This document shows, one piece after another, positions 53,752 to 59,484 of a stretch of DNA of 64,000 nt. Positions within the stretch are counted from its first letter, which is position 1, and each line of letters opens with the position of its first letter. The DNA is from Halorubrum xinjiangense (GTDB taxonomy: Archaea; Halobacteriota; Halobacteria; Halobacteriales; Haloferacaceae), in NCBI RefSeq assembly GCF_900102375.1, contig NZ_FNBO01000001.1, forward strand, positions 248,001 through 312,000. The letters are read 5' to 3'. Made by a program: the position numbers and the translations under genes. The notes under the pieces were generated by a model. The model saw only the letters and a list, made by a program, of their open reading frames with translations. It was not told the origin of the DNA and searched no databases.

Positions 53752-54984
53752 CTACAGGTCCCCGTTGATGGCGTCCGCGACGCGACCACGGTCGAACAGC
53801 CGCTTGCCTTCCGGGATCTCCGGGTACGGGCCCTCCTCGTAGCGGGGCCACTCGCCGAAGGCGTCGGGGTAGAGCTGCTTCGCGGTCATCTCCAGCTGGA
53901 AGAGGTTGAGGACCGGCCCCTGATACCGGGCGCCCTGCGGGTGGATCCGGTCGTTTTTCACCGCCGTGACCTCCGAGCCGACGGGGTCCTCCTCGAAGGC
54001 GGTCCGGCGGCCGGCCATGTCCGTCTCCGGCTCGAAGCCGCCGAGGTAGAGGATGACGTCGGGGTCGGCCTCCAGGATCGTCTCGAAGTCGACGACCGTG
54101 CCGGACTCGACGCTCCCCTCGAAGGCGTCGCGCGGCCCGAGCGGGCGCGTGTGCGCCGTGAGGAAGCCGGGGTTGCTCAGGGTGTACGCGTAGATCTGCT
54201 CGATGTCGGCGGCCGCGACCATGATCGCGGTCGGGCGCTCCTCCTCCGGCGGGAGCCCCGCTTCGACCGTCGCGAGGAGCTCCTCGCGGACCGCGGCGAG
54301 CGCCTCGTAGCGCTCGCGCTCGCGGAACGCCTCGGCGACGATCTCGAACTGCTCCCACAGGCCGTAGTACTGGTAGCCGTCCGCCCACTCCTCGGCGGGC
54401 TCCTGGTGGCGGTCGGAGAGGGAGTTGCCGAACCACGGCGAGACGCGCTCGGCGACCTCGTCGACGTCCTCGCGGTCCCACCCCTCCAGCCGCGTCACCC
54501 ACGCCGGGTCCGCGAGGTGGACGTCGCTGTCCAGCTCGTACAGCGTCTCCTTGTCCGGCTCCCACGATGAGTAGAGCCCCGACCAGTCGAGCGAGACGCC
54601 CGGGAGCCGCGCGACGAACTGGTTCCAGAGGCCGTCGTAGTAGTCCGGCGCGTGCATCGCGGTGATCCCGTCGCTCCGCCCCAGCGCGAACGCCATGTCC
54701 GCGTGGTGAGTCAGGCGCGTGAACACCGTCTCGGGCGGCGACTCAAACGTCACCTCGCCGGTCGGCGAGATGGACGCGGTGTAGCCCTCTCCGGCGTCGT
54801 CCGTCGAGGAGTCATCCGAGTCGCCGTCCGTCGACCCGTTCTCACTCCCGTCGTCCCCGGCCGGGTCTGACTCCGCGTCGCCGCCCGTACAGCCGGCGAG
54901 CAGGCCGCCGAGCGCGACCGTACCGCCGTACTTCGCGAAAGTTCTGCGGGTCGGTTCCGTCGAGGTCTCGTCGACGTTGGGCAT
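53752..54984 (-). CDS. Siderophore/iron ABC transporter substrate-binding lipoprotein
   Basis: A 410-residue exported binding protein of the FepB/FhuD/BtuF class. The N-terminus has a twin-arginine motif (RRTF) and lipobox (LLAGCTGG, Cys ~32), followed by an acidic linker (~35-65). Two lobes carry typical segments (TVFTRLTHHADMAFALG, DPDVILYLGGF). Two DtxR-type operators precede it. No permease or ATPase lies immediately downstream; those in the second unit may serve both binding proteins. Confidence 0.88.
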   Translation of the reverse strand: MPNVDETSTEPTRRTFAKYGGTVALGGLLAGCTGGDAESDPAGDDGSENGSTDGDSDDSSTDDAGEGYTASISPTGEVTFESPPETVFTRLTHHADMAFALGRSDGITAMHAPDYYDGLWNQFVARLPGVSLDWSGLYSSWEPDKETLYELDSDVHLADPAWVTRLEGWDREDVDEVAERVSPWFGNSLSDRHQEPAEEWADGYQYYGLWEQFEIVAEAFRERERYEALAAVREELLATVEAGLPPEEERPTAIMVAAADIEQIYAYTLSNPGFLTAHTRPLGPRDAFEGSVESGTVVDFETILEADPDVILYLGGFEPETDMAGRRTAFEEDPVGSEVTAVKNDRIHPQGARYQGPVLNLFQLEMTAKQLYPDAFGEWPRYEEGPYPEIPEGKRLFDRGRVADAINGDL

Positions 54985-54987
54985 ATT

Positions 54988-55003
54988 TTTAGGCTAGCCT
55001 AAA
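54988..55003. promoter_or_regulatory. DtxR/IdeR-type iron operator, proximal
   Basis: TTTAGGCTAGCCTAAA is a perfect 16-bp palindrome centred at 54995.5, only 3 nt upstream of the ATG of the binding-protein gene. It matches the TTAGG-N4-CCTAA pattern of iron-dependent DtxR-family repressors. Confidence 0.85.
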
Positions 55004-55023
55004 TCAATTTAACCGTTCCGATC

Positions 55024-55039
55024 TTTAGGCCGACCTAAA
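55024..55039. promoter_or_regulatory. DtxR/IdeR-type iron operator, distal
   Basis: TTTAGGCCGACCTAAA, near-perfect palindrome centred at 55031.5, exactly 36 bp from the proximal site. The core promoter (a TTAAATTG element) lies between the two sites. Confidence 0.82.
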
Positions 55040-55074: not shown

Positions 55075-55959
55075 CTACTTCTCGTGTCGCGCGCGGATCG
55101 GCGTGACGCGCGGGCCGTCCTCGGTCTGAACCACGTCGGCGTCGACGCGGAACACCTCGGAGAGCAGCTCCTCGGTGACGACCGCCTCGGGCGGGCCGCG
55201 GGCACGGACCTCGCCGTCCGTGAGCGCGATCACGCGGTCGGCAAGCCGCGCGGCCTGCTCGATGTCGTGGAGGACGACGACGACGGTGACCTCGCTCTCG
55301 TCGCGGAGCGTCTCGATGATCTCCATCACCTCCATCTGGTGGTGTAAATCGAGGAACGTCGTCGGCTCGTCTAAGAGGAGGACGTCGGTGTCCTGCGCGA
55401 GGACCATCGCGATCCACGCCAGCTGCTTTTGCCCGCCGCTGAGGCTGCCGACCTCGCGGTCGCGCAGGTGACCGCAGCCCGCCAGGTCGATGGCGCGCTC
55501 GACCGCCTTGGCGTCCTCGGCGGTCGTCCGCTCGAAGAACCCGCGGTGCGGGTAGCGGCCGTGGTACACGAGGTCCTCGACCGTGATGCTGTCGGGCGAC
55601 GTGCTCTCCTGGGAGAGCAGGCCGAGCCGCTTCGCGAGCGCCTTCGTGTCCATCGAGTGGACGTCGCTCCCGTCGAGCAGCACCGAGCCGTCCTCGGGGT
55701 CGATCTGGTTCGCGAGCCCCTTCAGGAGAGTGCTCTTGCCGGAGCCGTTCGGCCCGACGAGCGCCGTCACCGCGCCCGGCTCGGCCGCGATCGACTCGCC
55801 GTCGATCACGGGTTCCGGGGCCGTCGGGTAGCTCAACACGAGATCCTTCGCGTCGAGGTCGCTCGCGTCGGTCGCCGCGCGCGACTCGCTCGGTTCCGCC
55901 GGTTCGTTCGCGCCGCTCGATCCGTCCGACTCCGTCGCGTTCGCGCGTTCGATGGACAT
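55075..55959 (-). CDS. Iron/siderophore ABC transporter ATP-binding protein
   Basis: A 294-residue ATPase of the FecE/BtuD type. Walker A is LVGPNGSGKSTLLKG (residues ~68-82), signature LSGGQKQLAWIAM (around 173), Walker B VLLLDEPTTFLDLHHQ (around 193), H-loop VLHDIEQAARLAD. An acidic N-terminus of about 35 residues precedes the domain. The start codon directly abuts the permease stop codon. Last gene of the second iron-uptake operon. Confidence 0.93.
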   Translation of the reverse strand: MSIERANATESDGSSGANEPAEPSESRAATDASDLDAKDLVLSYPTAPEPVIDGESIAAEPGAVTALVGPNGSGKSTLLKGLANQIDPEDGSVLLDGSDVHSMDTKALAKRLGLLSQESTSPDSITVEDLVYHGRYPHRGFFERTTAEDAKAVERAIDLAGCGHLRDREVGSLSGGQKQLAWIAMVLAQDTDVLLLDEPTTFLDLHHQMEVMEIIETLRDESEVTVVVVLHDIEQAARLADRVIALTDGEVRARGPPEAVVTEELLSEVFRVDADVVQTEDGPRVTPIRARHEK

Positions 55960-57177
55960 TCAGAGGTCACCCATGTTCTGCTGTCGCCGCATCAGGTACA
56001 GGAAGTACGGCCCGCCGACGAGCCCGGTGACGATCCCCACCGGGACCTGCGAGTCCGCGCCGGTCAGGACGCTCATCCCGAGGCGCGCCCCGACGTCGGC
56101 GCCGACCATCAGCGCCGGGCCGACGAACAGGCAGCCGACGATCACCCGCTTGTAGTCGCTGCCGACGAGGTTCCGGACGACGTGCGGGACGATGAGCCCC
56201 ACGAAGCTCACGATCCCCGCCACCGCGATGCTGGCGGCGGCGGCCAGCACGGCGACGCCCGAGAGCGCGAACCGCACCCGCTCTATCGACATCCCCAGCG
56301 ACTTCGCCGTCTGCTCGCCCAAGAGGAGGAGGTTCAGCTGCCGGGAGCCCGCGAGCGACAGCGCCACCGCGACGAGCGTCCACGGGAGCGCCATCCGGAC
56401 CTGCTCCCAGTCGGTCCCGGTCAGCGACCCCGTCGTCCACTGGATCGCCGACTGGACGACGCCGATGTCGTCGGCGAAGAAGAACAGCCCAGTCTGGAGG
56501 CTGGTGAAGACGGTCCCGACGATGACTCCCGCGAGCACGAGCCGCACGGGGCTCGTCCCGTTCTTCCACGCGATGGCGTAGACGATCAGGAACGCGACCG
56601 ATCCGCCGAGCGCCGCGATGAGCGGCAGGAACGCCGAGAGGCCGCCGAACACGACGAGCGTGAGCAGGATCATCAGCCCGGCGCCGGAGGAGACGCCGAG
56701 GATGAACGGGCTCGCGAGCTCGTTCCGCGTCACCGCCTGGAAGATGGCGCCGGAGACGGCGAGGTTGGTGCCGACGACGACGCCGACGAGCACCCGCGGC
56801 AGCCGGATGTTCCAGACGACGAGCGTCTCGCGCGCGAGCTCGGGCAGCTCGCCCCGAAACCCCGTGACCGCCCGCATCAGCTCCTCGCCGAGGAGGAAGT
56901 TGAGGAACCACCGCGGGTCGAGCAGGACGGCGGGGTCGAGGACGGCCCGCCACGCCTGTCTGACGGTCATCGAGTACGCCCCGAAGCTCACCTGGACGAG
57001 CCCGGCGGCGACGACCAGGACGAGGCTCCCCGCGGCGACGGTCAGCAGCCGCGGCTCGAACAGCCACCCGAGCCGGCCCCCCTCGGCCGGTCGCCGCGCG
57101 GCGGACTCGCCGCCGACCGCCCGGCCCTCGTCGCCGGTCACCGACCCCCCGTCGGTCGCCGGTCGCTCGCCGGTCAT
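55960..57177 (-). CDS. FecCD-type iron/siderophore ABC permease
   Basis: A 405-residue permease with about 9-10 helices. Typical FecCD motifs are WNIRLPRVLVGVVVGTNLAVSGAIFQAVTRNELASPFILGVSSGAGL and VAGIVSFVGLIVPHVVRNLVGSDYKRVI, the latter being the EAA-like coupling loop to the ATPase. A single permease would form a homodimer. The ATG at 57177 overlaps the stop codon of the upstream FAD oxidoreductase (ATGA). Confidence 0.93.
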   Translation of the reverse strand: MTGERPATDGGSVTGDEGRAVGGESAARRPAEGGRLGWLFEPRLLTVAAGSLVLVVAAGLVQVSFGAYSMTVRQAWRAVLDPAVLLDPRWFLNFLLGEELMRAVTGFRGELPELARETLVVWNIRLPRVLVGVVVGTNLAVSGAIFQAVTRNELASPFILGVSSGAGLMILLTLVVFGGLSAFLPLIAALGGSVAFLIVYAIAWKNGTSPVRLVLAGVIVGTVFTSLQTGLFFFADDIGVVQSAIQWTTGSLTGTDWEQVRMALPWTLVAVALSLAGSRQLNLLLLGEQTAKSLGMSIERVRFALSGVAVLAAAASIAVAGIVSFVGLIVPHVVRNLVGSDYKRVIVGCLFVGPALMVGADVGARLGMSVLTGADSQVPVGIVTGLVGGPYFLYLMRRQQNMGDL

Positions 57178-58166
57178 CGCGTACCCCCGTCGGCTTGCGG
57201 TGCGTCCAGCCCCTCCTCGCCCGCGTACGCCGCGACCGCCTCGTCGTCCATCGCGTCGAGCAGCACGTCGGCCCCGTGCGCGTCGACGACCGCGTCGGGG
57301 TCGAGGCGCTCGGCGAGCGCGCGGTGACCGGCCGCGGCGCGGGCCGTCTCCTCGTCCGCGTCGACGTACGCCGACAGCGCGTCGTCGACCGCGGCCTCGC
57401 GGACGCGCGCGAACCGCGCCGAGTTCGGGTCGACCGGGCCGTCGGCGTGCTCCGCGTCGAACCACTCGACCCACCGGCCGCGGTCGGCCCACTCGCCGTC
57501 GAGTTCGGCCTCGCGGCGGACCCAGTCGACCCCCTCCGCCGCCGCCGGCCACCAGCCGTCGTCGACCCGGGCGTCGGCGACGACCTTCTTTCCGACCCGG
57601 GCGCCGCGGCCCGCGGCCGTGACCGCCTGCCGGTCGGCCTCGGAGGGGGACGCGACGTACAGCCCGTCGACCGGCGTCGTCCCGTCGCGGTCGGCGTACT
57701 CGCGGTCGAAGTGTTCGTGCGTCTCGCCGCCGTGGTCGTGGACCTCGAACATCGCCTCGTCGCCGTCGAGGCCGCGGAGGTACTCGCCGTCGTAGCGCGT
57801 CGCCGCGACCACCCGTCGGGCGTCGACCGGATCGCCCGACTGCGGGGTGACGACGAACCGCGGTTCGTCCGGGTCGCCGGCGTCACCGGGCGCACCGTCC
57901 GCGCGCTCCACCGACTCCACGAGGTCCTCGACGACCGCGCAGCCCGCCCGCTCCGCCTGCGCGCGCATGAGTTCGGAGAGCGTCCCCACGTCGATCCCGG
58001 CCGGGAACCCGGGGTAGTTCTCCAGGTGCGCGCAGCGCGCGAGCGACGACCGGCCGCGGTCGAAGACGGCGACGTCGAGGCCGTCGCGCGCGGCGAACAC
58101 CGCGGCGGCGCAGCCGGCCGGGCCGCAGCCGACCACGACGAGGTCGCGGTCGGGGACGCCGCTCAT
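57174..58166 (-). CDS. Thioredoxin-reductase-like FAD oxidoreductase without CxxC, second copy
   Basis: A 330-residue paralogue of the gene at 52608-53429. FAD site VVGCGPAGCAAAVFAARDGLDVAVFD (residues ~10-35), then HLENYPGFPAGIDVGTLSELMRAQ and DGLYVASPSEADRQAVTAAG. It has no CxxC pair. A longer C-terminal helical tail (~250-330) distinguishes it. Overlaps both neighbours by 4 nt, between the substrate-binding protein and the permease, so its function is probably tied to handling of imported iron complexes (inference). Confidence 0.82.
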   Translation of the reverse strand: MSGVPDRDLVVVGCGPAGCAAAVFAARDGLDVAVFDRGRSSLARCAHLENYPGFPAGIDVGTLSELMRAQAERAGCAVVEDLVESVERADGAPGDAGDPDEPRFVVTPQSGDPVDARRVVAATRYDGEYLRGLDGDEAMFEVHDHGGETHEHFDREYADRDGTTPVDGLYVASPSEADRQAVTAAGRGARVGKKVVADARVDDGWWPAAAEGVDWVRREAELDGEWADRGRWVEWFDAEHADGPVDPNSARFARVREAAVDDALSAYVDADEETARAAAGHRALAERLDPDAVVDAHGADVLLDAMDDEAVAAYAGEEGLDAPQADGGTR

Positions 58167-59428
58167 TCCGCCCCTCCGGCGACGATCGAGGCGACCTCGT
58201 CGCGGTCGAAGAGGCGCTCCTCGGCGGGGATATCGGGGTAGTCGTCGCCGTGCTCGTAGCCCGGCCACTCCCCGAACCGCTCCGGGAACAGCTGCTTCGC
58301 GGTCATCTCCAGCTGGAACAGGTTCATGATCGGTCCCTGGACCGGGTCGCCGGAGGGGTAGAAGTGGTCGTTCGCTATCGCGGAGAGCTCGCCGGCGACG
58401 GGGTGGTCCGACAGCGCCTCGCGGGTCGCGCCCACGTCGTAGTAGGAGGCGATCCCGTACTGGTGGAGGATTACGTCGGGGTCGACCTCCAGCAGCCGCT
58501 CGTGGTCGTAGGCCGTCTCGTAGGTGACCTCCTCGGCGGCGAACGCGTCGGGGACCTCGAACGGGCGCACGTGCGCGTTCGCGAACCCCGGCTCGTCGGT
58601 CCGGGAGGGGTAGTAGGTCCCGTCCGTGTAGATGAGCGCCGCGACCGTCGGGCGCTCCGACTCCGGCTGGAGGTCGCTCCGGATCGTCTCGACTACGTCC
58701 TCGCGGACCGCGTCGAGCGCGGCGAAGCGCTCCTCCTCCCGGAACGCGGCGGCGACGCGCTCGCCGATCTCGGGGAGTGCGTAGTAGTCGTAGTCGTCGC
58801 GGTACGGCTCGGGCGGCTCGGAGTGCCGCCGGCTGTAGACGTTCCCGAACCACGGTCCGACCCTGTCCCGGATCTCGGCCACGTCGCCCTCGTCCCAGCC
58901 GTCGAAGGAGGCGAACAGGGCCGGGTCCGCGAGGTGGAGGTCGGAGTCGAGCTCGTAGAGGAGCTCGCGGTCGACGGAGATCCCGCCGCCCGAGCCGGTG
59001 TTGAGCTGTTCGAGCCCCTCGCGGTCGAAGGAGACGCCGTCGAGGGCCGCGTAGTAGGCGTCGAGCGTGTTCCCGCCCGCGTCGGCGTCGAAGCCGAGCG
59101 AGTTGACCGAGTCGCCGTGGCCGAGCGCCACCGCCAGGTCGGCGTACAGCAGGCTGTACACCATGACGTCTTCCGGCACCGCGTCGAAGGTGACCTCGCC
59201 GACCGGGGCCATCGCGGCTGCGTACGATCCCGAACCCGCGTCCTCGTCAGACGGCTCGTCTCCGCCGTAGCCGTCGTCCGCCGAGCCGTTTCCGCCGTCG
59301 GAGTCGGATCCGCTCGGCGCCGATTCCGTCCCGTTACACCCGGCGAGCAGTCCCGCGCCGGCGACGGCGCCCGCGTATCTGATCGCGTCGCGTCGCGTGC
59401 CGACGAGTCGGTCCGCGTCTGGGTCCAT
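58163..59428 (-). CDS. Siderophore/iron ABC transporter substrate-binding lipoprotein, second copy
   Basis: A 421-residue paralogue of the gene at 53752-54984. Twin arginine (TRRDAIRYAG) and lipobox (LLAGCNG, Cys ~31) at the N-terminus, then an acidic linker and a FepB-like fold. The shared C-terminal block LNLFQLEMTAKQLFPERFGEWP or its close variant is nearly identical in both proteins. First gene of a four-gene operon (binding protein, FAD oxidoreductase, permease, ATPase), with two iron operators upstream. Confidence 0.9.
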   Translation of the reverse strand: MDPDADRLVGTRRDAIRYAGAVAGAGLLAGCNGTESAPSGSDSDGGNGSADDGYGGDEPSDEDAGSGSYAAAMAPVGEVTFDAVPEDVMVYSLLYADLAVALGHGDSVNSLGFDADAGGNTLDAYYAALDGVSFDREGLEQLNTGSGGGISVDRELLYELDSDLHLADPALFASFDGWDEGDVAEIRDRVGPWFGNVYSRRHSEPPEPYRDDYDYYALPEIGERVAAAFREEERFAALDAVREDVVETIRSDLQPESERPTVAALIYTDGTYYPSRTDEPGFANAHVRPFEVPDAFAAEEVTYETAYDHERLLEVDPDVILHQYGIASYYDVGATREALSDHPVAGELSAIANDHFYPSGDPVQGPIMNLFQLEMTAKQLFPERFGEWPGYEHGDDYPDIPAEERLFDRDEVASIVAGGAE

Positions 59429-59432
59429 ACGA

Positions 59433-59448
59433 TTTAGGCCACCCTAAA
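59433..59448. promoter_or_regulatory. DtxR/IdeR-type iron operator, proximal, second unit
   Basis: TTTAGGCCACCCTAAA, centred at 59440.5, 5 nt upstream of the ATG of the second binding-protein gene. Same TTAGG-N4-CCTAA pattern with one mismatch across the axis. Confidence 0.8.
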
Positions 59449-59468
59449 CGATTAAAGCGGTTTCGAAT

Positions 59469-59484
59469 CTTAGGCGTGCCTAAA
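59469..59484. promoter_or_regulatory. DtxR/IdeR-type iron operator, distal, second unit
   Basis: CTTAGGCGTGCCTAAA, centred at 59476.5; the inner arms TTAGGC/GCCTAA are perfect. Exactly 36 bp from the proximal site, as in the first unit, with a CTTTAATCG core promoter between. Confidence 0.82.

Follow-up and report, generated by a model that had tools for sequence, protein, structure and literature searches.

Paired DtxR-type sites bracket the core promoters of two binding-protein genes in Halorubrum xinjiangense at a constrained, lineage-specific spacing

Two binding-protein genes of a putative metal importer in Halorubrum xinjiangense are each preceded by a pair of DtxR-type palindromes whose centres lie exactly 36 bp apart, and we asked what this distance reflects. 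Both pairs lie in the window, by which we mean the whole 64-kb stretch of DNA that was analysed (C1:248001-312000 of the 3.26-Mb genome; 71% G+C). In unit 1, the proximal palindrome TTTAGGCTAGCCTAAA (54988..55003, centre 54995.5) occupies roughly positions -4 to -19 of the start codon and the distal palindrome TTTAGGCCGACCTAAA (55024..55039, centre 55031.5) roughly -40 to -55. Unit 2 consists of the proximal palindrome TTTAGGCCACCCTAAA (59433..59448, centre 59440.5) and the distal palindrome CTTAGGCGTGCCTAAA (59469..59484, centre 59476.5), the latter with one mismatch in the 16-mer and none in its 14-mer core. The first-pass annotation had placed two palindromes at the unit 1 centres and had read the second unit as an exact repeat of the 36-bp distance; both statements were borne out. 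Four perfect TTAGGN4CCTAA 14-mers occur in the window, forming the two pairs. A first-order Markov model of the window predicts 0.0012 such sites per 64 kb (0.06 per genome), and a reversed-pattern control matched 0 of 392 Halobacteriales genomes; together, the low expectation and the empty control exclude a chance origin of the pairs.

Unit 1 serves the gene of binding protein 1 (53752..54984, minus strand; Peripla_BP_2 family, 410 aa), and unit 2 serves that of its paralogue, binding protein 2 (58163..59428, minus strand). Along the minus strand, binding protein 2 is followed by an FAD-dependent oxidoreductase of the thioredoxin-reductase type (57174..58163), an open frame with a FecCD-type permease (55960..57552; PF01032, E 3.8e-83) whose true start probably lies within the frame, an ABC-transporter ATPase (55075..55959) that ends 35 bp before the unit 1 distal site, unit 1 itself, binding protein 1 and another FAD oxidoreductase. 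Unit 2 stands at the head of the cluster, and unit 1 is an internal promoter. The binding proteins share 49% identity, so common descent may account for part of the agreement in spacing; as their genes are paralogous, unit 2 cannot be counted as an independent repeat of unit 1.

Each pair brackets the BRE and TATA elements of a binding-protein promoter. Unit 1 contains a BRE-like CGGAAC (55015..55020, minus strand) at -31 to -36 of the ATG, in columns that are conserved among haloarchaeal 36-bp pairs, and a TATA-like TTAAAT (55007..55012, minus strand) with its centre about 26 bp 5' of the ATG. The corresponding elements of unit 2, also on the minus strand, are CGAAAC (59460..59465) and TTTAAT (59451..59456). 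Both units have the layout of a haloarchaeal leaderless promoter, the BRE sitting about 33 bp before the start and the TATA about 26 bp, and both binding-protein promoters are probably leaderless. The 86 haloarchaeal pairs spaced 36 bp have strongly conserved columns in the 22 bp that separate their 14-mer cores: upstream of the start codon, a CG recurs at about 36 bp and a T-rich TATA at about 26 bp. The claim that the sites flank the core promoter of the binding-protein gene is supported, and the gene belongs to a FecCD-type importer; the accompanying remark that the bases between the sites differ holds outside BRE and TATA and fails inside them, where BRE-like and TATA-like elements keep conserved positions.

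The host genome carries 11 TTAGGN4CCTAA sites at nine places, two pairs and seven singles, and pairing in this genome is restricted to the two window units. Within 120 bp of the seven single sites, no partner differed at three or fewer of the 12 fixed positions in the 16-mer; one partner differed at four. The first-pass annotation would have taken random spacings of the same sites at other iron promoters as a refutation, and these were not seen in this genome, the remaining sites being single. Most single sites lie directly 5' of a start codon, which is where the paired promoters have their proximal site, and the neighbours of the singles include ABC-transporter genes as well as a glycosyltransferase and other genes without a clear iron link.

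Two DtxR-family proteins are encoded in the genome, each with PF01325 and PF02742. The protein on contig C18 (234 aa) carries a FeoA/SH3-like domain and has 5zr4, then ScaR, as its best solved relatives; the protein on contig C10 (147 aa) has no FeoA match. About 22 bp before the start of the C18 gene (1312), in the proximal position, there is a degenerate site, TTTAGACTGGTCAAAA; this match with three mismatches was the only sign of autoregulation upstream of that gene. Around all four window sites, the CCTAA/TTAGG repeat at a 5-bp offset that makes up the classical 19-bp double-dimer box was absent. The sites match the DtxR-family operator consensus, and the palindrome, an encoded regulator and a location at a metal-uptake promoter (the importer substrate being putative) are all as expected of a single-dimer operator of this family.

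Probably, an iron-dependent DtxR-family repressor acts at each unit through a two-site operator that encloses the archaeal core promoter. The actinobacterial regulator IdeR binds a lone TTAGGN4CCTAA as one dimer and the 19-bp box as two, placed on opposite faces (PMC8464063); by analogy, each palindrome here would take one DtxR-family dimer. The proximal dimer would cover the DNA from TATA to the start codon, the zone of polymerase loading and melting, and the distal dimer would sit 2-3 bp upstream of BRE, against the TFB footprint. When iron is sufficient, both dimers would exclude TBP/TFB and polymerase; when iron is scarce, both would leave and the importer would be made. Sequence shows the layout of the sites, their conservation, the gene context and the DtxR-family genes; binding, its iron dependence, occlusion and the role of the second site are inferred from these, and either DtxR protein may be the regulator. 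The proximal site alone would be the usual operator in this genome, with the distal site supplementing it at some promoters, probably to tighten repression, and 36 bp would represent a snug fit of two dimers around BRE/TATA with 1-3 bp of slack.

Spacing within the genus was examined in 51 paired promoters, recovered for the two window genes and close paralogues from related genomes. Forty-nine keep 36 bp and two have 35 bp, and at one further genus promoter the distal site has been lost. The N4 centres and the flanks vary freely among these promoters while the spacing persists. The proximal site is nearly always intact and the distal site more often carries a mismatch; the unit 1 proximal palindrome is intact in every genus orthologue that has a site. 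Several gene copies lying directly 3' of another copy had no pair. In one genome (G340, C1:1191089-1206869), about a dozen binding-protein paralogues stand in tandem, and in this genome and its relatives several of the array copies are without the operator pair.

Across the order, the pair pattern was present in 250 of the 392 Halobacteriales genomes with a gap of 7-37 and in only 29 with a gap of 38-68; the reversed-pattern controls gave none. Among 121 fetched haloarchaeal pairs at 33-37 bp, 86 were spaced 36 bp, and the others fell at 33 (4), 34 (15), 35 (12) and 37 bp (4). Pairs at 31-35 bp were present in 106/392 Halobacteriales genomes and in 1 of 32 sampled genomes of this genus. A one-genome-per-species scan, restricted to 33-39 bp spacing, also gave pairs in Poseidoniales, Marine Group III and Bathyarchaeia among the matches listed; the Poseidoniales and Bathyarchaeia spacings given below come from wider-gap searches. 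Where examined, pairs outside the haloarchaea lay mostly upstream of lipoprotein or DtxR-family genes, the former including FEA1-related lipoproteins (NCBIfam NF038033).

In Poseidoniales, where 57 of 146 genomes had pairs, the spacing was bimodal: 28 pairs were spaced 32-35 bp and 31 were spaced 43-45 bp, with two at 21-22 bp and none at 36-42 bp. The two groups lie about one helical turn apart; the genomes that hold one are mostly not those that hold the other, so a small number of evolutionary events may account for them. TATA stays beside the distal site in both groups, and the proximal site shifts by about one helical turn between them. Many pairs in the 43-45 bp group are flanked by candidate genes on both sides. 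Bathyarchaeia had pairs in 22 of 151 genomes, mostly at 38-42 bp, with a few at 22-25 bp and one at 47 bp. Many of these lie upstream of a FeoA-domain DtxR-family gene, a position that suggests autoregulation of that gene.

Together, these distributions indicate that the spacing is constrained yet not universal, a lineage habit. The first-pass annotation had suggested that the distance is selected, and a constraint is supported, 36 bp being the haloarchaeal mode (86/121) and near-invariant in related promoters of the genus. It is not fixed more widely, with 31-37 bp in haloarchaea, mostly 38-42 bp in Bathyarchaeia and 32-35 or 43-45 bp in Poseidoniales. A strict 36-bp rule is contradicted both by the other lineages and by the 106 of 392 genomes that have pairs at 31-35 bp.

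Several further arrangements were encountered in these searches. Three or four sites occur at some promoters of Marine Group III and Poseidoniales: a further site follows the proximal one at a distance of 15 bp downstream or, in one case, the sites form an array spaced 32/32/22 bp. One haloarchaeal genus has a recurrent near-identical pair spaced 21 bp (TTAGGCTAACCTAATTTAGGTTTAGG...), a layout unlike the TATA-bracketing pair. Three bacterial contigs matched the pair pattern (Ruoffia, Thermoflexus and Helicobacter); the Ruoffia and Thermoflexus matches have lipoprotein-like or secreted-protein genes downstream, and the Helicobacter match looks repetitive. Genes encoding DUF7260 (in Haloferax) and DUF7551/DUF7552 also occur downstream of paired sites. 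By this position the DUF7551/DUF7552 genes are iron-regulon candidates, and DUF7260 possibly belongs with them; its start lies 67 bp from the paired sites and the direction of control is less sure.

We compared the position of the sites relative to TATA across the lineages. In haloarchaea, the distal centre lies about 22 bp and the proximal centre about 14 bp from the TATA centre, and one geometry is common to 77 of 82 scorable 36-bp pairs (139 scorable haloarchaeal pairs in all). In the remaining scorable haloarchaeal pairs, both linkers vary by 1-2 bp, the distal somewhat more. Slack on the distal side alone, which the 121-pair set had hinted at, was ruled out by the 139-pair set. The covariance of the two linkers was negative (0 of 5000 permutations), as compensating indels that preserve the total would give; the signal is indistinguishable from one made by misplacing the core, and it comes from related sequences. 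For most pairs of Poseidoniales and Bathyarchaeia, the distance of the distal centre from TATA is about 13 bp, so that relative to haloarchaea the sites are shifted by about 9 bp. The haloarchaeal geometry is not universal, and this counts against the reading of a two-site operator built around BRE/TATA.

At 10.5 bp per turn, 36 bp amounts to 3.43 turns, which leaves the sites about 154 degrees apart on near-opposite faces of the DNA, and the tolerated range of 33-37 bp sweeps about 140 degrees. One could suppose that the two dimers form one promoter-spanning complex in which rotational register matters, with a spacing particular to each lineage and two registers in Poseidoniales; we regard this as unlikely. 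If true, such a complex would be an archaeal TATA lock, a metal sensor clamping both sides of the TBP/TFB site. The first-pass annotation had proposed that the two dimers touch across the promoter, the contact fixing the distance. The strong 36-bp mode in haloarchaea speaks for such contact, as do the Poseidoniales groups at 32-35 versus 43-45 bp, about one turn apart with none between, and the FeoA/SH3-like domain of the C18 protein; such domains link neighbouring MtsR dimers and may link IdeR dimers (PMC8464063). Rigid face-to-face contact is nevertheless disfavoured, because the sites lie about 154 degrees apart and the tolerated spacings sweep about 140 degrees, with 33-37 bp accepted in haloarchaea and 38-42 bp in Bathyarchaeia. 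The Poseidoniales groups, moreover, are mostly found in separate sets of genomes and could stem from a small number of events. We find the proposed contact not supported and quite unlikely, and sites packed around one BRE/TATA are the simpler reading.

The spacing might instead be merely inherited, the paired promoter having arisen once and been copied with duplicated genes under little selection on distance. The window genes are paralogous and similar binding-protein genes account for many of the paired genes elsewhere, as this would predict, but unrelated genes (an aminotransferase, DUF7551/7552 and halocyanin-like proteins) also have 34-37 bp pairs, and the spacing survives while N4 centres and flanks diverge; we judge pure inheritance improbable. 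Archaeal activators usually act directly upstream of BRE, and the distal site is present at some promoters only, both of which would suit an activating or dual-function distal site, whose dimer would aid TBP/TFB in one iron state while the proximal dimer represses. This too is distinctly improbable: both sites have the same consensus, the distal dimer would be so near BRE that hindrance of TFB is expected, and the distal half-site overlaps the expected BRE in most Poseidoniales pairs. That each site is served by a different DtxR paralogue is highly improbable, since proximal and distal half-sites follow one consensus with no consistent difference seen, even though the genome encodes two such proteins, one with and one without a FeoA domain, and both Idr1 and Idr2 have a part in the iron homeostasis of Halobacterium (as cited in PMC11349517).

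The two-site operator bracketing BRE/TATA is the reading that we carry forward. DtxR-type operators and haloarchaeal DtxR regulators are already known. A two-site operator that brackets BRE/TATA with a lineage-specific spacing was not found in the literature searched, which lacked the main haloarchaeal DtxR papers, and it may have been described earlier. Paired sites offer a genome-readable rule for spotting likely iron-uptake promoters in several archaeal groups, including uncultured marine ones. Moreover, the natural spacing series of 33-45 bp is a ready experiment in how a eukaryote-like TBP/TFB promoter is blocked by a bacterial-type metal repressor.

MDR1 of Archaeoglobus fulgidus is a DtxR-family repressor whose operators cluster downstream of TATA. 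Like the repressor proposed here, it is metal-dependent and acts at the core promoter, where it is described as blocking polymerase recruitment (PMC2995911); bracketing of BRE/TATA by its operators is not described in the text consulted. In haloarchaea, Idr1/Idr2 of Halobacterium and Idr/SirR/TroR of Haloferax are DtxR-family regulators of iron genes (as cited in PMC11349517), and paired sites are present in Haloferax species among the matches listed. In Streptococcus pyogenes, the DtxR-family protein MtsR uses an SH3-like domain to link neighbouring dimers on DNA (as cited in PMC8464063); MtsR is a bacterial manganese sensor, and a contact of its type is a possibility for the haloarchaeal pair. 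A further likeness is to the actinobacterial IdeR/DtxR iron box, a 19-bp TTAGGTTAGSCTAACCTAA with the 14-bp half box TTAGGN4CCTAA, whose half-sites and N4 centre are the same as those found here (PMC8464063). The classical box, however, holds two overlapping dimers 5 bp apart, whereas the haloarchaeal promoters have two separate single-dimer sites about 36 bp apart around TATA.
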